A stretch of DNA of 21,229 bases from a virus: positions 1-21,229 of the IMG/VR virus record IMGVR_UViG_3300042870_001196, one strand, 5' to 3'. This document shows positions 7,905 through 13,971 of this stretch, in pieces. The translations under genes were made by a program, and so were the position numbers. Numbering within the stretch: position 1 is the first letter of the stretch; the number at the start of each line of letters is the position of its first letter. Under the pieces are notes generated by a model. It had not been told where the DNA came from, searched no databases, and saw only the letters and a list, made by a program, of their open reading frames with translations.

Positions 7905-8033
7905 ATGAATACTCATCACTATTATCACACAATCAATGTTCAGCCTGAAACAGGGTCAATAGCCTGCTGGTCACTGTTTGGTGCGAATAGTGATACATTA
8001 GAGATTGATAGGGTCCAGGAAGACACAGTGTAA
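7905..8033 (+). CDS. Candidate 42-aa leader peptide or small protein
   Basis: ATG at 7905, ten bases after a possible -10 box, runs to TAA at 8031-8033. It starts MNTHHYYHT and ends EIDRVQEDTV. There is no strong ribosome site. The end of the frame overlaps the left arm (8009-8016) of a stem that precedes the terminator at 8071-8088, so its translation could affect RNA folding there. It is not recognised and could be chance. Confidence 0.4.
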   Translation: MNTHHYYHTINVQPETGSIACWSLFGANSDTLEIDRVQEDTV

Positions 8034-8088
8034 TACCACAGTGTTCACAAACTCCAAGGACCCTAGGATTAAAAACCCTAGGGTTTTT
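8009..8088 (+). terminator. Attenuator-like element with CTAG-loop terminator
   Basis: 8071-8088 is a perfect palindrome (A5-CC, loop CTAG, GG-T5) followed by further Ts: a terminator. Just upstream, TAGGGTCC (8009-8016) pairs perfectly with GGACCCTA (8058-8065), and the CCTAGG at 8062-8067 can pair with CCTAGG in the terminator stem. Mutually exclusive folds are therefore possible. CACAGTG occurs twice in the loop (8024-8030, 8037-8043). Terminator confidence is high; regulation is inferred. Confidence 0.7.
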
Positions 8089-8106
8089 GTTTTTAGCAAG
8101 GAAAAA

Positions 8107-8268
8107 ATGAAGAAATCAGATTTAAAACAAAGAATGCGCGAAGTAAGGTTTACCACAGAGCATACTCTGACTGCGGATCAGCTGAATCAGTTGATACAAG
8201 ACAAATTGGAACGTGCTCGGATAGAATCCGAAAATCGCAGACGAGTCAAGAATCAGCTTTTAGCATAG
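8107..8268 (+). CDS. Small charged helical protein, 53 aa
   Basis: ATG at 8107 with AAGGAA seven bases upstream; a longer in-frame reading from 8005 would run through the terminator and is rejected. The sequence begins MKKSDLKQRMREV and is rich in Arg, Lys, Glu and Gln, with LTADQLNQLIQDKLERARIE likely helical. It resembles small DNA- or RNA-associated phage proteins only in composition. Expression would require read-through of the terminator at 8071-8088. Function unknown. Confidence 0.6.
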   Translation: MKKSDLKQRMREVRFTTEHTLTADQLNQLIQDKLERARIESENRRRVKNQLLA

Positions 8269-8282
8269 ATCTTCTTAAAGTG

Positions 8283-8312
8283 TTGACAGGAAACGAGGTC
8301 CTGTGCTACACT
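8283..8312 (+). promoter_or_regulatory. Promoter with inverted repeat in the spacer
   Basis: TTGACA (8283-8288), 18-base spacer, TACACT (8307-8312). The inverted repeat ACAGGA/TCCTGT (8286-8291, 8299-8304) lies within the promoter and could be an operator. It would drive the structured RNA that follows. Confidence 0.65.
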
Positions 8313-8318
8313 ATAAAC

Positions 8319-8473
8319 AAGCACAAACGGGCGGCGACTAGGATGGAATCTCTTGTGTGAGACTAAAAATTAGATCGTATCGAAGCACATTAGACAAATG
8401 AATACAATCTGTAGGCATACAGAAGAAACAGAGTGGCTAGTGTGCTTCGATACACACATTGGAAACAATGTGT
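8319..8473 (+). ncRNA. Structured non-coding RNA A
   Basis: No credible gene lies between 8269 and 8519. The stretch holds a promoter and several hairpins: TCTC/GAGA, CTAA/TTAG, then a 16-base-pair stem (8377-8392 with 8438-8453, one U-G pair) enclosing a CTGTA/TACAG hairpin, and finally an eight-base-pair stem with a GAAA tetraloop (8454-8473). The stem base carries CACATTA opposite TAGTGTG, as in RNAs C and D. The transcript start is estimated from the promoter. No known RNA family is recognised. Confidence 0.65.
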
Positions 8474-8501
8474 TACGTGTGGGTAAATCACCTGCTACAA
8501 T
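8473..8501 (+). promoter_or_regulatory. Weak candidate promoter for the D,D-peptidase gene
   Basis: TTACGT (8473-8478) and TACAAT (8496-8501) with a 17-base spacer. The start codon is at 8520, giving a leader of about a dozen bases. The gene could also be read from the promoter at 8283. Confidence 0.4.
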
Positions 8502-8519
8502 TTTTACAAATTGAAGAAT

Positions 8520-9281
8520 ATGAAATTATTTGCTACTGTGTTTTTTTGTGCAGTGTTGACCAATGCCACAGCTCGCACCAGTGAGCCCACAGTGTTGGTC
8601 TACAACATCAATGCACAACGCACGGAACTGAGTCGTCATGTGGATCAGGTGCGATCCATGGCCAGTGTGACCAAGCTGATGACTGCCATGGTGACATTGG
8701 ATTACAATAGAGATTTACAACAGCCGATAACACTGGGGAGAAACACCAGTAGTCGATTGCCGCCAGGCCAGTATACCAGAGAGCAGTTGTTGCAGGCCAT
8801 GTTGATCAGCAGTGACAACGGTGCAGCCGAAGCCATTTCACAGGACTATCCTGGGGGCCGATCTGCATTTATAGCCAAAATGAATCAGCATGCTAGAATG
8901 TGGGATCTTCGAAATACTAAATTCATAGATCCATCAGGGTTAGGCGTGTTCAATGTGACCACTGCACAGGATCTGGCAGAGATGGTGCAGATTGCTGCCG
9001 GTTATTGGTTTATACAAGAAGTCAGCAGTCAGCCCACGGTATTGCTAAAAAAGTCAAACCAAACCCGTAGCAACACTGTGAATCTTAGCCACACTTCTCA
9101 ACAACTGTTGGCAGAGTTTGACCGTGTGACTGTGAGTAAGACTGGATTTACTACGGCCGCCGGGTGGTGTGTAGCCATGTTGGTGGAACACAACACGCAA
9201 CAGTATGCAGTGATTGTGCTGGGTGCCAATTCTAAACTGGATCGCAGTGCAATTATAAAGAAAGCGTTTAAAAATTTATAA
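8520..9281 (+). CDS. D-alanyl-D-alanine carboxypeptidase/endopeptidase, S11 family, exported
   Basis: A penicillin-binding-protein-type serine peptidase that trims D-Ala-D-Ala stems or cross-links of peptidoglycan. ATG at 8520 opens a signal peptide (MKLFATVFFCAVLTNATA, cleavage near residue 18). All three active-site motifs are present: SVTK at 49-52, SDN at 98-100 and KTG at 207-209. At 253 aa it has the catalytic domain but not the C-terminal domain and anchor of DacA-type enzymes, most like the PbpG/PBP7 group. Location should be periplasmic. It has no holin or spanin neighbour, so wall remodelling during infection is as likely as lysis. Host capture by the phage is inferred. Confidence 0.88.
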   Translation: MKLFATVFFCAVLTNATARTSEPTVLVYNINAQRTELSRHVDQVRSMASVTKLMTAMVTLDYNRDLQQPITLGRNTSSRLPPGQYTREQLLQAMLISSDNGAAEAISQDYPGGRSAFIAKMNQHARMWDLRNTKFIDPSGLGVFNVTTAQDLAEMVQIAAGYWFIQEVSSQPTVLLKKSNQTRSNTVNLSHTSQQLLAEFDRVTVSKTGFTTAAGWCVAMLVEHNTQQYAVIVLGANSKLDRSAIIKKAFKNL

Positions 9282-9285
9282 CATT

Positions 9286-9377
9286 GGCCCTGTAGTTTAA
9301 TGGTAAAACGGCGGATTTATATCCCGTAAGCAACAGATAATTGGTTCATGTGGGTTCGATTCCCGCCGGGGCTACCA
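9286..9377 (+). tRNA. tRNA-Ile(TAT), atypical
   Basis: Acceptor GGCCCTG/CGGGGCT (G-U at 1-72), D-stem GTTT/AAAC with GG in the loop, T-stem GTGGG/CCCGC with TTCGATT loop, A73 and encoded CCA. The best anticodon loop is TTTATAT, giving TAT (codon AUA) with A37. Two oddities: an A-C mismatch at 31-39 and a 22-base variable region normally seen in Leu, Ser or Tyr tRNAs. Identity is therefore less certain than the gene itself. It follows the peptidase stop by four bases. Confidence 0.75.
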
Positions 9378-9440
9378 TGTCTTAATGATCTACTAGAAAT
9401 TTTTATAACTTTTGCAATCTTGTGTAAATAGAGAGAATCC

Positions 9441-9881
9441 ATGCTACACCTAATTAAATCCACTACTGACAAATTTTTTGAGTTGTTGTCTCATGATCCA
9501 GTACGTCCATCTATTCCTCACAATGAAAGAGTAGGGGTCAATCGCGATATTTTTGTCGGTAGAGATAGCAATGATAAAGTTACTGCAATCACATGCGTAA
9601 GCTATCAGGACAGTATACCAATTTCTGAAAACGAATTGTTCCGAGTTGCTCATGATCCAGTTATTGCAATATTTTACACTATATGGAGTTATGAACCTGG
9701 TGCTGGCCGTCGTTTGATTTTTGATGCAGTAAATCACATACGTCAAACTAATCAGTCTATCAATAGATTCGTTACACTGAGCCCGCCTACAGAAATGGCC
9801 CGGCGATTTCATTTAAAAAATGGTGCAGTAGTTTTTAGAGAAAACACCGAAACTGTAAATTACGAGTATAGTGTACTCTAA
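9441..9881 (+). CDS. GNAT-like acetyltransferase family phage protein, 146 aa
   Basis: ATG at 9441. Conserved-looking blocks are FVGRDSNDKVTAITCVSYQD, AIFYTIWSYEPGAGRRLIFD and RFVTLSPPTEMARRFHLKNG. The strand order (a sheet with GAGRRL before a helix, then LSP...A..FH.KNGA) fits the GNAT N-acyltransferase fold, with GAGRRL in the place of the acetyl-CoA loop. Similar proteins occur in T4-like aquatic phages. The substrate is unknown. It sits between two tRNA genes. An inverted repeat (TGTAAGG/CCTTACA, 9886-9909) follows the stop. Confidence 0.6.
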   Translation: MLHLIKSTTDKFFELLSHDPVRPSIPHNERVGVNRDIFVGRDSNDKVTAITCVSYQDSIPISENELFRVAHDPVIAIFYTIWSYEPGAGRRLIFDAVNHIRQTNQSINRFVTLSPPTEMARRFHLKNGAVVFRENTETVNYEYSVL

Positions 9882-9926
9882 TAGATGTAAGGACACCAAT
9901 AACCTTACAACTAGCACGGGTATTAG

Positions 9927-9992
9927 TTGACTTAAAATCAATAGTTTGCTATAATACACACATGTTAAGAAATTAACTGTGTTCTTTAAAAA
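9927..9992 (+). promoter_or_regulatory. Consensus promoter plus boxA-like antitermination site for the tRNA/ncRNA operon
   Basis: TTGACT (9927-9932), 17 bases, TATAAT (9950-9955). About 20 bases into the transcript, 9980-9992 reads TGTTCTTTAAAAA, close to bacterial rRNA boxA (TGCTCTTTAACA). A boxA suits a long untranslated, highly folded transcript that would otherwise be open to Rho. The promoter is firm; boxA function is inferred. Confidence 0.7.
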
Positions 9993-10015
9993 TTTAAATC
10001 TGATGCCATCAAATG

Positions 10016-10169
10016 GTATCATTGTAAAGTGCTATTAGGGTATCGTGTAGGGACGCTTACACTATTCGGGTCCAACTGGCCGGGAACGGATCCTGAAATA
10101 ACTGCATCGGCTTTGACAGGGAAGCACCCTACGTCTAAATTTATGCACGATAGCACTTTACAATGATAC
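10016..10169 (+). ncRNA. Structured non-coding RNA B with 20-bp terminal stem
   Basis: 10016-10035 and 10150-10169 are perfect inverted repeats of 20 bases. Inside, TATCGTG/CACGATA (10041-10047, 10145-10151) offers an extended or alternative helix. GTAGGG pairs with CCCTAC, and GGGTCC with GGATCC around a GC-rich loop. The right arm ends one base before tRNA-Asp, so the stem sits exactly at the tRNA 5' end. There is no coding potential of note. Not a family I recognise. Confidence 0.75.
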
Positions 10170-10170
10170 T

Positions 10171-10245
10171 GGTCTCAAAGTGTTCACGGACGCACACAAG
10201 CCTGTCACGCTTGAAGAAGGGGATCGTTACCCCTTGAGACCGCCA
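10171..10245 (+). tRNA. tRNA-Asp(GTC), divergent
   Basis: Acceptor GGTCTCA/TGAGACC, D-stem GTGT/GCAC with GG in the loop, anticodon stem CAAGC/GCTTG around CTGTCAC (anticodon GTC), T-stem AGGGG/CCCCT, G73 and encoded CCA. The anticodon loop and G73 match bacterial tRNA-Asp. The T-loop ATCGTTA lacks the usual T54 and A58, and position 8 is A, not T. Confidence 0.75.
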
Positions 10246-10254
10246 AGATAGTTT

Positions 10255-10330
10255 GCTCGGTTCGTCTAGAGGCCCAGGACATCACCCTTTCACGGTGAGT
10301 ACACCAGTTCGAATCTGGTACCGAGTACCA
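10255..10330 (+). tRNA. tRNA-Glu(TTC)
   Basis: Cloverleaf with acceptor GCTCGGT/ACCGAGT, anticodon stem TCACC/GGTGA around CTTTCAC, canonical T-loop TTCGAAT and encoded CCA. It lies ten bases after tRNA-Asp. Confidence 0.95.
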
Positions 10331-10336
10331 TGTTGT

Positions 10337-10411
10337 TGGGGGTTCGTCAAGAGGTAAGACAACGGATTTTGATTCCGTCATGCATAGGTTCGATCCCTAT
10401 ACCCCCTGCCA
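10337..10411 (+). tRNA. tRNA-Gln(TTG)
   Basis: Acceptor TGGGGGT/ACCCCCT with an unpaired first position, as is common for Gln tRNAs. Anticodon stem ACGGA/TCCGT around TTTTGAT, T-loop TTCGATC, G73 and encoded CCA. Confidence 0.94.
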
Positions 10412-10420
10412 ATAAGTTAT

Positions 10421-10496
10421 CGCAGAGTGTTAGAAGTGGTATCTGGCCAGGCTCATAACCTGGAGGTCGGGGGTTCGAATCCCTCCTCTGCAACCA
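10421..10496 (+). tRNA. Initiator tRNA-fMet(CAT)
   Basis: Acceptor CGCAGAG/CTCTGCA leaves a C1-A72 mismatch, the hallmark of bacterial initiator tRNA. Anticodon loop CTCATAA is identical to E. coli fMet. The anticodon stem ends AGG/CCT instead of the usual GGG/CCC. Encoded CCA. Confidence 0.9.
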
Positions 10497-10702
10497 AATC
10501 CCGTGTTAACTAAACGTAAAAGAGTTAGGTAATTGCAACACCTTAATAGCTCGGTGCATTGGATCTACCGCTAAGGCTTGATTGAAAGCGACTTGAGAAA
10601 TCACAAAGGCGGACCTTGTCCGTCTAAATAAAAAAAAAGGTGGACAGAGTAACTGCTCGGTCTAGGGCTCTTGTGGTGAGAGTAGCTAGACAACTAATTT
10701 AT
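10497..10702 (+). ncRNA. Structured intergenic RNA between tRNA-fMet and tRNA-Asn
   Basis: About 200 bases without a gene. Hairpins visible in order: GTGT...ACAC enclosing TAACT/AGTTA, CCTTA/TAAGG enclosing CGGT/ACCG, GGCGGAC/GTCCGTC with a three-base loop, and GTCTAG/CTAGAC enclosing CTCT/AGAG. A run of nine As separates the last two. No tRNA fold or known RNA family is recognised. It is probably part of the same transcript as the flanking tRNAs. Confidence 0.5.
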
Positions 10703-10778
10703 TCCTTGATAGCTCAGTTGGTAGAGCACTTGACTGTTAATCAAGTTGTCCCTGGTTCGAACCCAGGTCGAGGAGCCA
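10703..10778 (+). tRNA. tRNA-Asn(GTT)
   Basis: Acceptor TCCTTGA/TCGAGGA, D-stem GCTC/GAGC, anticodon stem CTTGA/TCAAG around CTGTTAA, T-stem CCTGG/CCAGG with TTCGAAC, G73 and encoded CCA. Confidence 0.96.
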
Positions 10779-11027
10779 AAGAACATGCCGAGTGTCGTCG
10801 GCTACTGTGACCCACAGGATGAAGTACGTGACAAGTACGGGTGGTTCGAGCAAGAGCCTGCCCCCAGTAATGGGGATGGTGAATCTGCTTCCGGGTAACC
10901 GGCGGTCTAACCTAACCGGCGTTAGCAATACGAGAACGGTCCCTGTCGGGAAGCGGGTGGAAGGAGTGTGTGATGGGTATGATAGCGTCATATCTTGATA
11001 CTCTATAATTACCGCCGGGGGATGCAG
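10779..11027 (+). ncRNA. Ornate GC-richer structured RNA of unknown family
   Basis: About 250 bases without a credible gene but dense in hairpins: GCCGA/TCGGC, CTGTG/CACAG, GTAC/GTAC, CCCC/GGGG, CCGG-GTAA-CCGG (a GNRA tetraloop), CTAAC/GTTAG, TCCC/GGGA, and GGGTAT/ATACTC enclosing GATA/TATC. It is clearly more GC-rich than the surrounding phage DNA. I looked for RNase P, 4.5S and 6S signatures and saw none. Its place in a phage tRNA cluster recalls large ornate RNAs such as GOLLD and ROOL, but I cannot align it to them. Confidence 0.55.
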
Positions 11028-11114
11028 AGCATATTGAAGCACATTAAAGATAGGGTCGTAGCGGTTCCATGAACTTGAGTACATACCAAGGTAGTTAGTG
11101 TGTTTCAATATGCT
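11028..11114 (+). ncRNA. Structured non-coding RNA C with 19-bp terminal stem
   Basis: 11028-11046 pairs with 11096-11114 over 19 positions, two of them G-U wobbles, which points to RNA pairing. The inner end of the stem is CACATTA opposite TAGTGTG, the same as in RNAs A and D. The interior has GTTC/GAAC around CAT and an ACC/GGT helix. It lies between the ornate RNA and tRNA-Lys. No coding role is seen. Confidence 0.75.
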
Positions 11115-11155
11115 TTAAAGTAAGGAGAGTCCAAATGGACAGTGAAAAGAGCAGT

Positions 11156-11231
11156 GGGACGTTAGCTCAGTTGGTAGAGCAGTAGACTTTTAATCTATTG
11201 GTCATTGGTTCAAATCCAATACGTCCTACCA
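11156..11231 (+). tRNA. tRNA-Lys(TTT)
   Basis: Acceptor GGGACGT/ACGTCCT, D-stem GCTC/GAGC, anticodon loop CTTTTAA, T-stem ATTGG/CCAAT with TTCAAAT, encoded CCA. The CCA itself is the first part of the left arm of RNA D, so the 3' end is base-paired in the precursor. Confidence 0.96.
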
Positions 11232-11322
11232 TATAAAAACACATTACACGCTTACCCCGGGTGGTACCGGGACGGTAGTGACACTTAACAACCAGGGTGT
11301 TTTATAGTGTGTTTTTATATGG
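11229..11322 (+). ncRNA. Structured non-coding RNA D filling the tRNA-Lys/tRNA-Arg gap
   Basis: 11229-11246 pairs with 11305-11322 (18 base pairs, one U-G); one more pair (A11228-T11323) extends it. The inner end is CACATTA/TAGTGTG, as in A and C. Inside are a hairpin built on CCCGG/CCGGG with ACC/GGT and CAC/GTG below it, and ACAC/GTGT. The left arm includes the CCA of tRNA-Lys and the right arm ends six bases before tRNA-Arg. Confidence 0.75.
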
Positions 11323-11328
11323 TAATTT

Positions 11329-11405
11329 CTGACTGTAGCTCAGTAGGATAGAGCAACGGATTTCTAATCCGTCGGTCGGGGGTTCAAATCCCTCCAGTCA
11401 GGCCA
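11329..11405 (+). tRNA. tRNA-Arg(TCT)
   Basis: Acceptor CTGACTG/CAGTCAG, D-stem GCTC/GAGC, anticodon stem ACGGA/TCCGT around TTTCTAA, T-stem GGGGG/CCCTC with TTCAAAT, G73 and encoded CCA. The next gene starts six bases after it. Confidence 0.95.
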
Positions 11406-11411
11406 AATAGT

Positions 11412-11813
11412 ATGACCAAAATAATAGTAAACGGAACATTTGATATATTGCATCGTGGACATTTAGAAATGCTACAGTATGCAAAAAACCAAGGCGACTA
11501 TCTTTTAGTTTGCATTGACTCTGACGAACGTGTTCGAAAACTCAAAGGATCTACTCGACCCATAAACAACCAAATAGATCGTATGTTTATGCTGAATAGT
11601 TTAAAATGTGTAGACTATGTTAAAATCTTTAATTCATCAGAAGAGTTAATAGAACTAATTAAACTGGACAAACCAGACATCATGGTCAAAGGCAGTGACT
11701 GGCAAGGTAAAAGCATAGTTGGACAAGAACACGTAAATCAAGTGATATTTTATGACAGAGTCGGCAATTATTCAACAACAAACACAATTCAAGATATTGC
11801 TAATAGGCGATAA
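11412..11813 (+). CDS. HldE C-terminal-type nucleotidyltransferase (ADP-heptose synthase-like)
   Basis: A cytidylyltransferase-like enzyme that should couple a sugar 1-phosphate to a nucleotide. The 133-aa protein opens with GTFDILHRGHLEML, holding the HxGH nucleotide-binding motif, and has RPINNQIDRMFML and VKGSDWQGKSIVG, as in the adenylyltransferase half of HldE. TagD/glycerol-3-phosphate cytidylyltransferase is the alternative; the neighbours favour HldE. The start lies six bases after tRNA-Arg, so it is probably cotranscribed with it. There is no clear ribosome site. Its end overlaps the kinase gene by 62 bases. Confidence 0.82.
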   Translation: MTKIIVNGTFDILHRGHLEMLQYAKNQGDYLLVCIDSDERVRKLKGSTRPINNQIDRMFMLNSLKCVDYVKIFNSSEELIELIKLDKPDIMVKGSDWQGKSIVGQEHVNQVIFYDRVGNYSTTNTIQDIANRR

Positions 11814-12516
11814 CTGCAAGGATATCTATCAGTATGGCACTGTAGATCGTCTCAGTCCAGAAGCTCCGGTGCCTGTATTTGTTCCCACTCGTACAGAAGA
11901 GCGCAATGGCATGGCTGGCAATGTGTTTAATAACTTAGAAGCACTAGGATGTGATGTACACTATCAATTTGGTGAGACCAGCACCAAGACTAGACTTATC
12001 GACGAGCGCAGTAAGCAACAGATTATTCGAATAGACAAAGACGTTGAGTCAACTCCTGTTATGTTTGATACAGACATGCTTGATGCATATGATGCAGTGG
12101 TCATCAGTGACTATGACAAGGGCACAATTAGTTACGAACTAATGGAACAAATTATTGCCACAGTTAAATGTCCAGTATTCATTGATACCAAGAAAACAGA
12201 CCTGGCACGATTGCAAGGCGCTTGGGTCAAGATCAATGAACTTGAATATAGTAAACTCAAAAGTGAGTGCAGCGGACTAATTGTCACTCGCGGAAGCAAA
12301 GGTGCCAGAGTAGTACATCATGACATTGACTGTGCCGCACCTGGTGTAGAAGTTGCAGATGTTACAGGTGCTGGAGATACATTTCTTGCAGCATTTGCAT
12401 ATCAATATGTCAATACAAAAAATTTGCTACAGTCAACTAAATTTGCAATTGATGCCAGTGCGGTCACTGTACAACATATTGGGGTTTATGCGCCAACATT
12501 AGAGGAAATCAAATGA
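11752..12516 (+). CDS. PfkB-family sugar kinase, HldE N-terminal-type
   Basis: Expected to phosphorylate heptose 7-phosphate at C1. The 254-aa protein has LLIGDNCKDIYQYGTVDRLS and SPEAPVPVFVP near the N-terminus, typical of HldE kinases, then IIRIDKD and the catalytic DVTGAGDTFLAAF near the C-terminus. In E. coli, kinase and nucleotidyltransferase are one protein in the order kinase-transferase; here they are separate, reversed and overlap by 62 bases in different frames. A later start would cut the first strand, so ATG at 11752 is kept. It is shorter than the usual kinase domain of about 310 aa. Stop and next start overlap as ATGA. Confidence 0.82.
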   Translation: MTESAIIQQQTQFKILLIGDNCKDIYQYGTVDRLSPEAPVPVFVPTRTEERNGMAGNVFNNLEALGCDVHYQFGETSTKTRLIDERSKQQIIRIDKDVESTPVMFDTDMLDAYDAVVISDYDKGTISYELMEQIIATVKCPVFIDTKKTDLARLQGAWVKINELEYSKLKSECSGLIVTRGSKGARVVHHDIDCAAPGVEVADVTGAGDTFLAAFAYQYVNTKNLLQSTKFAIDASAVTVQHIGVYAPTLEEIK

Positions 12517-12869
12517 GATTAGATGGATTTGTAGAGAAAGGTTGGGGTTCTGAATTGATCTGGGCCACCAATGACAAGTACTGCGGTAAACTATTAAAGT
12601 TTAATACTGGTGCCAAGTTTAGTATGCACTTTCATGCAGAGAAAGATGAGACCTGGTATGTATTAGATGGGCGATTCAAAGTTATTACCATTGACACCAA
12701 AGACGCCCATCAAGACTCTAGTATCTTAACTTCGGGTGATGTGTGGCGCAATCAGCCATTGGAGCCGCATCAAATAGTTTGTTTAGAAGCAGGTACCATT
12801 ATTGAAGTAAGCACAGCAGATTCAGTAGAAGATAATTATAGAGTTATGCCGGGCGATAGTCAATTATGA
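12513..12869 (+). CDS. Cupin-fold protein, sugar-phosphate isomerase-like, 118 aa
   Basis: A small single-domain cupin. Motif 1 reads GAKFSMHFHAEKDETWYVLDG, with the two His and the Glu that bind metal; motif 2 contains PLEPHQI. It most resembles the C-terminal cupin of type II mannose-6-phosphate isomerases. It is coupled by ATGA to both neighbours in the heptose cluster, so a sugar-phosphate is the probable substrate. Exact reaction unknown. Confidence 0.75.
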   Translation: MRLDGFVEKGWGSELIWATNDKYCGKLLKFNTGAKFSMHFHAEKDETWYVLDGRFKVITIDTKDAHQDSSILTSGDVWRNQPLEPHQIVCLEAGTIIEVSTADSVEDNYRVMPGDSQL

Positions 12870-13174
12870 AATACATTGTAGATATTGATGGAACAATTTG
12901 TTCGATTGTTCTTAACAATGATGGCAGTGCAAACTATGATAAAACACAGCCACATAAAGATAGGATTGAAAAAATCAATAAGTTGTTTGATGAAGGACAT
13001 GAAATAACTTATTGGACAGCCAGAGGGTCTGCTTCTGGTGTTGATAGATCAGAATTGACTAAAAAGCAGATGACAGAATGGGGAGCAAAATATCATAAGC
13101 TAATATTTTATAAACCTGTTTATGATATTTGGATCGATGATAAAGCTGTAAATAGCGAAGTATATTTTAAATGA
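12866..13174 (+). CDS. HAD-superfamily phosphatase, capsule/LPS type, 102 aa
   Basis: Motif I is DIDGTI (D6 and D8), motif II is TYWTARG near residue 49, and the C-terminal acidic motif is YDIWIDDKA. It is a compact capless HAD hydrolase like those in capsule and LPS gene clusters. In the ADP-heptose pathway a HAD enzyme (GmhB) removes the C7 phosphate between the kinase and nucleotidyltransferase steps; this could be a functional equivalent but is not a close GmhB. ATGA overlaps on both sides. Confidence 0.75.
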   Translation: MKYIVDIDGTICSIVLNNDGSANYDKTQPHKDRIEKINKLFDEGHEITYWTARGSASGVDRSELTKKQMTEWGAKYHKLIFYKPVYDIWIDDKAVNSEVYFK

Positions 13175-13971
13175 AAATATTACTAACCGGCCACAAAGGT
13201 TTTATTGGTAGTCACATGTTGACAGCATTAGAATCTGCTGGGCACACGGTATCAACTTATGAATGGGGCGAAACAAATTTGCCCAGTGTAATGGAACAGG
13301 ATTGGGTTATTCACATTGGTGCTATCAGCAGTACCACTGAAAGAGACATTGATAAATTAATGCGACAAAATTTTGATTTCAGTCGCCAGTTATATGACGC
13401 TTGCAAAACGTATGGAGTCAATTTCCAATATGCAAGCAGTGCAAGTGTTTACGGATTGACCAGTACATTTAGAGAAGACGCTCCTGTTGATCCACGTACC
13501 CCGTATGCGTTGAGCAAATACTTGTTTGAACGTTATGTGCGTGATCATCCAAGTGGAAGCATTGTACAAGGCTTCCGTTACTTCAATGTGTACGGACCCG
13601 AAGGTGAAGAACACAAGGGCAACCAAGCAAGTCCATTTATGCAATTTAAACGTCAAGCAGAAACACAAGGACACATAGAAGTTTTTGAAGGTAGTGAATA
13701 CTATCTAAGAGACTTTGTTCATGTGTCAAGAGTAGTTGGCACACACTTGAATTTTTTATGTAATACAACCAGTGGTCTATGGAATTTGGGCACTGGACAA
13801 ACCATGAGTTTTATGGATGTGGCAAAAAGTTTTAATGTGCCGATCAGAACCATTCCCATGCCTGACAACTTAAAAGATTCATATCAAAAGTACACCTGTG
13901 CCGATATGAGCAAATTAAATGCCGTTTTAGCCACTGGCAACAGACACCAGTTGACAAGTAACCAAAGTTAG
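13171..13971 (+). CDS. NAD(P)-dependent epimerase, HldD-like (ADP-heptose 6-epimerase)
   Basis: A short-chain extended dehydrogenase of 266 aa. The Rossmann motif GHKGFIG lies at 7-13, ASSASVYG near 88, the catalytic Y112-x3-K116 in PYALSK, and RYFNVYGPEGEEHKGNQASP follows. The FNVYGP..HKG..AS block is a signature of HldD, which makes ADP-L-glycero-D-manno-heptose. It is about 45 residues shorter than E. coli HldD, mainly at the C-terminus. It is the last gene of the five-gene coupled cluster. The promoter for tRNA-Gly begins inside its final codons. Confidence 0.85.
   Translation: MKILLTGHKGFIGSHMLTALESAGHTVSTYEWGETNLPSVMEQDWVIHIGAISSTTERDIDKLMRQNFDFSRQLYDACKTYGVNFQYASSASVYGLTSTFREDAPVDPRTPYALSKYLFERYVRDHPSGSIVQGFRYFNVYGPEGEEHKGNQASPFMQFKRQAETQGHIEVFEGSEYYLRDFVHVSRVVGTHLNFLCNTTSGLWNLGTGQTMSFMDVAKSFNVPIRTIPMPDNLKDSYQKYTCADMSKLNAVLATGNRHQLTSNQS

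Follow-up and report, generated by a model that had tools for sequence, protein, structure and literature searches.

The DNA analysed here (the window) comprises the 21,229 bases of virus record IMGVR_UViG_3300042870_001196, across which 14 tRNAs and a permuted tmRNA were annotated. On its plus strand, the window also carries four RNA elements, each with an interior closed by a long stem: element A (8377..8453), element B (10014..10171), element C (11026..11116), and element D (11227..11324). Elements of this kind recur in many viral contigs, where the pairing of the closing stem is under selection and its first strand often starts exactly at the CCA end of a tRNA.

A repeat search placed the stem arms at 8377-8396/8434-8453 for A, 11028-11047/11095-11114 for C, and 11227-11246/11305-11324 for D, with 90-95% complementarity over 20 nt. 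The closing stem of A comprises 17 pairs (GTATCGAAGCACATTAG/CTAGTGTGCTTCGATAC). The inner CACATTA/TAGTGTG, including its U.G wobble, is common to the three, and each folds into one long stem (z of -7.71 for A, -6.13 for C, and -5.85 for D; 0 of 200 shuffles equally stable). The initial annotation had described these three stems with their shared core, and they were found where it had placed them; however, stem C proved longer than described (22 pairs, 11026-11116), and stem D begins at the CCA (11229-11231) of tRNA-Lys(UUU), which lies on the plus strand at 11156..11231. Stem B is perfectly paired over 20 bp, or 23 pairs counting G-U pairs and an extension, and closes a conserved interior of 112 nt. 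It has the architecture of A, C, and D but lacks the CACATTA core. Neither ARAGORN nor RF00005 called a tRNA in A, B, C, or D. No U-run directly follows stems A, C, and D in the window sequence, which speaks against an intrinsic terminator; the terminator scan was limited to loops of 3-8 nt and was unable to call these three. The two heptamers occur at chance level in the window (CACATTA 6 against 6.45 expected, TAGTGTG 6 against 3.75 expected), and A, C, and D account for three of the six matches of each. That A, C, and D are not chance structures follows from their pairing and their recurrence elsewhere, not from heptamer frequency.

For the recurrence, the pattern GAAGCACATTA N30-60 TAGTGTGYTTC was matched exactly by 59 stretches of viral_contigs, against less than one match expected by chance for its 22 letters on a rough estimate; about 24 of the 59 share the C-type interior and are non-independent. 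Two further viral scans with other parts of the stem fixed returned at least 120 stretches each, and 280 loci (numbered with the prefix L) were gathered. Run over them, a stem finder reported 717 distinct sequences, with some elements counted on both strands; these map to 568 positions distributed over 264 of the loci, with up to seven elements in one locus. In genome_contigs (84,980 species), a narrower pattern gave a single match, on an 8.4-kb contig of a metagenome-assembled genome. As the loci were retrieved with patterns holding CCATAT or the core, the CCA start of the elements is partly built in; tRNA adjacency, tRNA type, and strand are not built into the patterns. Additionally, relatedness among the contigs and a few duplicated loci (L001 and L002 copy the window, and L015 and L062 are one contig) make tests across elements non-independent.

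The closing stem keeps its pairing while its bases change. The arms CCATATTGAARYRYAYTN / NARTGYRYTTCAATATGG keep 17-18 pairs through compensatory change around 416 distinct interiors. When only the outer 10 bp were fixed in the scan, and only elements sharing the strand of their nearest tRNA were kept (158 distinct), each of pairs 10-16 was present in 155 to 158 elements, with varying bases: pair 10 was G.U in 76, A-U in 47, and G-C in 30, and pair 15 was U.G in 128, C-G in 22, and U-A in 7. Pairing then dropped to 133 of 158 at position 17, 83 at position 18, and 56 at position 19, so the length of the stem is set at 17-18 bp. In a scan that left the middle of the stem free and fixed its outer and inner parts (119 distinct elements), position 6 was U-A in 50, A-U in 50, and G-C in 12, and it was paired in 117 elements against 54 expected from independent columns. 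Relative to the nearest tRNA, 224 elements lie on the same strand and 18 on the opposite one, with 274 found on both strands and 52 without a tRNA within 2 kb. The strand bias together with the pairing pattern favours an RNA over a DNA palindrome. The initial annotation had itself named homologues with compensatory changes as the test of a conserved RNA element, and many homologues carry them. Its core claim stands, although it had overlooked the anchoring at CCA, the tRNA bias, stem B, and the fact that the interiors are separate families under different stems. Among the roles it had listed, processing of the RNase III type would agree best with the anatomy.

The start of the first strand coincides with the CCA of a tRNA in 205 of the 516 elements within 2 kb of one, and the next most frequent nearby offset accounts for only 6 elements. 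Without the copies L001, L002, and L062 the count is 203 of 510, and by distinct sequence it is 170 of 438. Counting from the tRNAs instead, in 323 of 3463 the CCA begins a stem with no fewer than 14 pairs, which always closes in TGG, against 1 of 1294 tRNAs once the downstream bases were shuffled. Among 442 stem counts, 391 had their outermost pair at -4 to 0, which means that the stem often takes in the discriminator base as well. In 53 of the 438 distinct elements, the next tRNA called by ARAGORN begins at the GG of the closing stem; there, as in L192, the stem fills the entire spacer. At the junctions with tRNAs the UGG partner is retained, which suggests that the hold on the CCA may be important by itself.

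The tRNAs concerned are few in type. Lys, Glu, or Gln anticodons (UUU, UUC, UUG) precede 145 of the 205 CCA-starting elements, and by distinct sequence the 170 comprise 62 after Lys, 31 after Glu, and 23 after Gln. Among the tRNAs, those with a clamp of this kind were Lys-UUU in 84 of 149, Glu-UUC in 69 of 170, Gln-UUG in 43 of 132, Leu-UAG in 25 of 124, and Lys-CUU in 23 of 49, in contrast to Met (1/279), Asp (1/151), Ser-GCU (0/151), Cys (0/142), and Trp (0/125). The elements on Lys-UUU were found in 38 different tRNA neighbourhoods. A Fisher comparison that drops anticodons with fewer than 10 copies gave an odds ratio of 18.8 (161/376 against 89/2329 distinct tRNAs), which is descriptive only, the contigs being related. 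Separately, tRNA-like sequences with a T-loop AGCGTTA in place of TTCRANN occur in 36 of 331 sequences (L312, L316, L319, and L330 among them); some are missed by ARAGORN and lie upstream of elements.

The interiors are many. The 416 distinct ones formed 256 clusters, of which 181 are singletons, so covariation is testable for part of the interiors only. A compensatory pair was present in 25 of the 35 clusters with at least three members, 82 of 411 pairs were compensated, and 45 of 1743 cells were unpaired, with structures predicted on the same alignments that were used to test covariation. Of the 35 clusters, 18 had a z below -2, but the values of clusters 0 and 24 are meaningless, and without these two the count is 16 of 33; alignment is poor in clusters 0, 24, and 31, which are also chained. 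The cluster of D (cluster 4) reached a z of -5.4 with six compensated pairs, and that of A (cluster 16, shared with L056, L276, and L120) a z of -2.4 with three. Interiors and stems are separable, as 18 of the 75 clusters with at least two members sit under stems differing at 5 or more of 17 bases, and 20 of the 51 clusters with tRNA-adjacent members follow more than one tRNA type. Sorting interior k-mers by tRNA type gave no readable tRNA-specific signal. A canonical T-arm was found in 30 of the 416 interiors, against a mean of 0.8 and a maximum of 3 after shuffling. In the interiors of L195 and L207, a T-arm followed by a D-arm-like part was seen by eye, which is the order of a permuted tRNA.

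Two interiors were also searched on their own, with no stem base fixed. The interior of B was recovered in 33 stretches representing 27 distinct copies, one of which is that of the window (as L002, which copies it). Stems of 18-27 bp, many of them unrelated in sequence, enclose 25 of the 27, and the other two are at contig edges. Ten of the 27 sit on a tRNA-Glu, their outer ends being offset by -1 to -5, and another sits on tRNA-Pro at -7. In the alignment of 25 copies, 96.8% of cells were paired against 77.9 after shuffling, double-change cells numbered 173 against 60.2, and the covariation score was 0.529 against 0.184 (0 of 500 shuffles), for a structure predicted from the alignment on which it was tested. 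Slid structures paired at most 46.2% and scored 0.058-0.101. One of the five measures, the further pair types, showed no excess (41 against 41.9 shuffled). In the closing stem of B, 14 of 19 pairs were compensated. The second interior motif, ATCAGGGNTGGTACACC, gave 22 stretches with 20 distinct copies, 11 of which are closed by stems of at least 17 bp.

The elements come and go between relatives. A comparison of equal flanks across contigs gave 40 empty-site-like pairs, which rest on few distinct contigs (L251, L267, L244, and L279 recur), and 403 filled pairs. In 227 of the 403 filled pairs the DNA between the equal flanks was dissimilar, and some of the filled stretches contain other tRNAs in place of a second stem. 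The gaps at the empty sites measured -5 to 11 nt in the 30 pairs listed. For instance, L192 has a 74-nt element where its relative L267 has 8 nt, and in L241 an element has tRNA-Glu on one side and a resident long-stem element on the other. In ten examples inspected by eye, elements occupied the places of short spacers in relatives, and no target-site duplication was seen.

The carriers are diverse, as judged from the AAA ATPase of the window, which is present in 14 of the 19 element-bearing contigs examined (62-100% identical), is 52% identical in PA5oct, and is absent from BcepSaruman. The largest element-bearing contig has 399,796 bases. The cultured Burkholderia phage BcepSaruman carries a 19-20 bp stem of other sequence that starts from the CCA of tRNA-Leu(UAG) (L283:3268-3363) and encloses the second interior motif. 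Over stretches of 12-13 kb from each of four cultured phages, the 3' end began a stem with no fewer than 14 pairs in one of nine tRNAs in BcepSaruman, none of twelve in PA5oct, none of four in XaC1, and none of two in pPa_SNUABM_DT01. A loose CCA...TGG pattern was uninformative in BcepSaruman, where control matches exceed real ones. When submitted to BLAST against 50,697 phage records, element C gave five weak matches only (E 0.9 and worse), and the frame element L217:2300-2420 gave none. With 8000-11450 as the query, a distant BLAST search had matches in 1200 phage records; among the 20 matches listed, query cover was 4-6%, and the annotated ones include tRNAs.

As the initial annotation had supposed, no named family accounts for the window elements. 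At the gathering score, Rfam returned only tRNA and the permuted tmRNA in the window, and a relaxed search of 8280-11420 gave as its sole element match RAGATH-30 on part of A, whose 21.0 bits (E 0.73) fall short of the gathering score of 59.5. In 12 other loci searched at the gathering score, the non-tRNA matches among the best 150 of 208 were GOLLD, tmRNA, and group I intron; tRNA matches there were left out of the comparison with the elements. Group I introns lie inside the arrays of L050 and L007. GOLLD (RF02032) was rejected for the window elements, which have no covariance-model match to it at the gathering score. Among the matches listed for the 12 loci, GOLLD was present at L199:2633-3098 and L234:10884-11346, and the elements fall outside it where the two were compared (L199:3103). 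The GOLLD RNA of L199 stops just before that element, which opens with CCATAT. GOLLD and ROOL are described, in the part of the source consulted, as structured phage RNAs whose function is not known and which often lie near tRNA islands (PMC12286853). The elements resemble them in being structured phage RNAs near tRNA islands; however, GOLLD and ROOL are single families of several hundred nucleotides, whereas the elements are many short families with a shared stem tied to a tRNA CCA. The literature search, judged mostly from titles and the starts of abstracts and with few subscription papers covered, gave no account of these elements. Rfam, DNA BLAST of the phage collection, and the literature gave nothing equal, and we regard the architecture as new in kind.

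In bacterial rRNA operons, RNase III cuts the stems around the pre-rRNA. The elements share with these a double-stranded stem around a structured RNA (17-27 bp), a position beside tRNAs, and, in the window, a boxA-like leader; unlike them, they enclose RNA other than rRNA, and their stem takes in the tRNA CCA. The boxA-like sequence GTTCTTTAAAAA (9981..9992, plus strand), presumably akin to those of rRNA leaders, lies between element B and a sigma70-like promoter (TTGACT, 17, TATAAT; 9927..9955, plus strand) ahead of B and the tRNA run. A second such promoter (TTGACA, 18, TACACT; 8283..8312, plus strand) is upstream of A. Both are consensus matches only, and 8000-11500 holds 11 such sites against 7.5 expected. 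Promoter-like and boxA-like sequences combined with long stems recall rRNA operons, and by this analogy host RNase III may be the enzyme that cuts the stems.

The reading that we put forward, with somewhat less than even confidence, is that the elements are RNA cassettes co-transcribed with phage tRNAs; their stem would clamp the tRNA CCA and would probably be a substrate of host RNase III. Large phages would carry the cassettes in their tRNA operons and transcribe them along with the tRNAs, and each cassette would form a small structured interior with a closing stem of about 17-23 bp. Near a tRNA, the CCA end would serve as the first strand of the stem and pair with UGG to give one clamped precursor. 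Host RNase III would most likely cleave the stem, as around pre-rRNA; exonucleases would then complete the tRNA end, and the interior RNA would be set free. The interiors would belong to many separate RNA families that are acquired, lost, or swapped from phage to phage as cassettes. Within this reading, the structure, its covariation, the position at the CCA, the strand, the tRNA bias, and the presence or absence of elements were observed in the sequences; transcription, cleavage by RNase III, masking of the CCA, and any role of the interiors belong to the interpretation.

Several observations weigh against this co-transcribed, RNase III-cut cassette. Element A has no adjoining tRNA. In the middle-free scan, stem position 7 was mismatched in 58 of 119 elements (A.C in 48, C.A in 10), and its pairing, 58, was little over the 44 expected. 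The interior cluster of C (cluster 1, 12 distinct versions) showed little covariation, with a z of -1.46 and one compensated pair. Nine of the 20 copies of the second interior motif lack a long closing stem, having 8-12 bp, about what this stem finder yields by chance. RNase III (PF14622) was matched in none of 13 large records, possibly fragments, so a host enzyme would be needed. RNase III requires neither a fixed stem sequence nor a CCA start, and yet the main group keeps both. Among other protein families searched, the CCA-adding family PolyA_pol (PF01743) was found in none of 13 records, RNA ligase (PF09414) in 4 of 13, and RtcB in 1 of 21 (BcepSaruman).

The exact start at CCA (205 elements, against 6 at the next offset), the frequent pairing of the discriminator base, and the strong tRNA bias across many gene orders (Lys-UUU 84/149 against Ser-GCU 0/151) would also fit a clamp that is functional in itself. 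Pairing of the CCA would hide the 3' ends of chosen tRNAs (Lys, Glu, Gln, and Leu-UAG) from charging and trimming until the clamp is opened by a signal or late in infection, and the interiors would be sensors or mere loops. We consider this unlikely, though a serious contender, since many elements have no adjoining called tRNA, B-type interiors keep their long closing stem there too, and each clamped tRNA type is also found unclamped, with empty sites at equal flanks. The elements may instead be selfish mobile hairpins that insert at tRNA 3' ends and whose fold serves spread and not the phage. Empty sites in relatives, as mobile hairpins leave, were found in the 40 flank pairs (from few distinct empty contigs), and the 227 dissimilar filled pairs, the element beside tRNA-Glu in L241, and the up to seven elements per locus agree with it. 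The mitochondrial double-hairpin or repetitive hairpin elements are, according to the part of the source consulted, invading hairpin-forming repeats in intergenic DNA (PMC2800124). As far as that part describes them, they differ from the present elements, which favour one strand, have interiors that covary as RNA, and are placed exactly at the tRNA CCA. The strand bias and the conserved U.G pairs point to selection on RNA, the interiors keep structure by compensatory change, and the ten examples showed no target-site duplication (mobility genes were not searched for); we judge mobile hairpins unlikely.

A further alternative makes the common stem a handle for one protein, with interiors that mimic parts of tRNAs or further kinds of RNA; they could, for instance, keep tRNA-cutting nucleases of the host engaged. 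Known anticodon nucleases attack Lys, Glu, and Gln tRNAs, and the excess of T-arms, together with the T-arm before a D-arm-like part in L195 and L207, would suit such decoys or scaffolds. Y RNAs, the partners of Ro60, likewise combine a terminal stem with a variable, partly tRNA-like interior; however, the window's Rfam matches include no Y RNA family, and the Ro60 domain TROVE was matched in none of 21 records, many of them possibly fragments, where a host protein could still serve. As 386 of the 416 interiors lack a canonical T-arm and the B-type stem sequences vary, which is hardly compatible with a protein that reads sequence, the chance of this explanation seems small. Chance palindromes, terminators, or assembly artefacts draw on the commonness of the two heptamers alone; with 59 stretches matching a 22-letter pattern, covariation, and no U-run directly after A, C, and D, they are scarcely credible. 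The hairpin rule of giant viruses, in which virus-wide hairpins mark transcript 3' ends and the mimivirus has the RNase III-like R343, is documented in the part of the source consulted (PMC4402537). Those hairpins, as that part presents them, terminate mRNAs and are cut by a viral enzyme, whereas the present elements sit among tRNAs and PF14622 was unmatched in the 13 records.

Phage tRNA arrays are usually taken as spare tRNAs. The arrays of these mostly uncultured large phages contain, in addition, stem-closed RNA elements that number in the hundreds; many belong to covarying families, and they share a way of docking onto tRNA ends. A wider proposal, which we regard as possible but doubtful, is an undescribed RNA system of large phages in which a large and quickly exchanged repertoire of structured RNAs, clamped on the CCA of particular tRNAs (Lys, Glu, and Gln foremost), would couple tRNA maturation to small-RNA release and be used in conflict over host translation. 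Phage tRNA maturation, the singling out of Lys, Glu, and Gln tRNAs, and the existence of an exchangeable RNA toolkit become testable in this way, and the cultured BcepSaruman and short transcripts in laboratory E. coli open the elements to experiment.

Other features of the window were also recorded. Upstream of C, 10779-11025 is a further conserved non-tRNA stretch, with GAAGCGGGTGGAAG in 40 and ACCGCCGGGGGATGCAGAG in 29 of 331 sequences; it has no Rfam match, and the fold of 10779-11156, which takes in C, has a z of -2.7. At 10640-10695 lies a recurrent GGACAGRGTAR, present in 82 of 331 sequences, and 7 of its 86 occurrences have CCATA 30-80 nt later; the fold of 10497-10702 is weak (z -1.65). 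The permuted tmRNA occupies 2207-2679, and permuted tmRNAs are also present in L050 and L199. After D, 11412-13968 holds sugar-nucleotide-like genes, namely a cytidylyltransferase-like gene, part of a PfkB kinase, a phosphoheptose isomerase-like gene, and a nucleotide-sugar epimerase.

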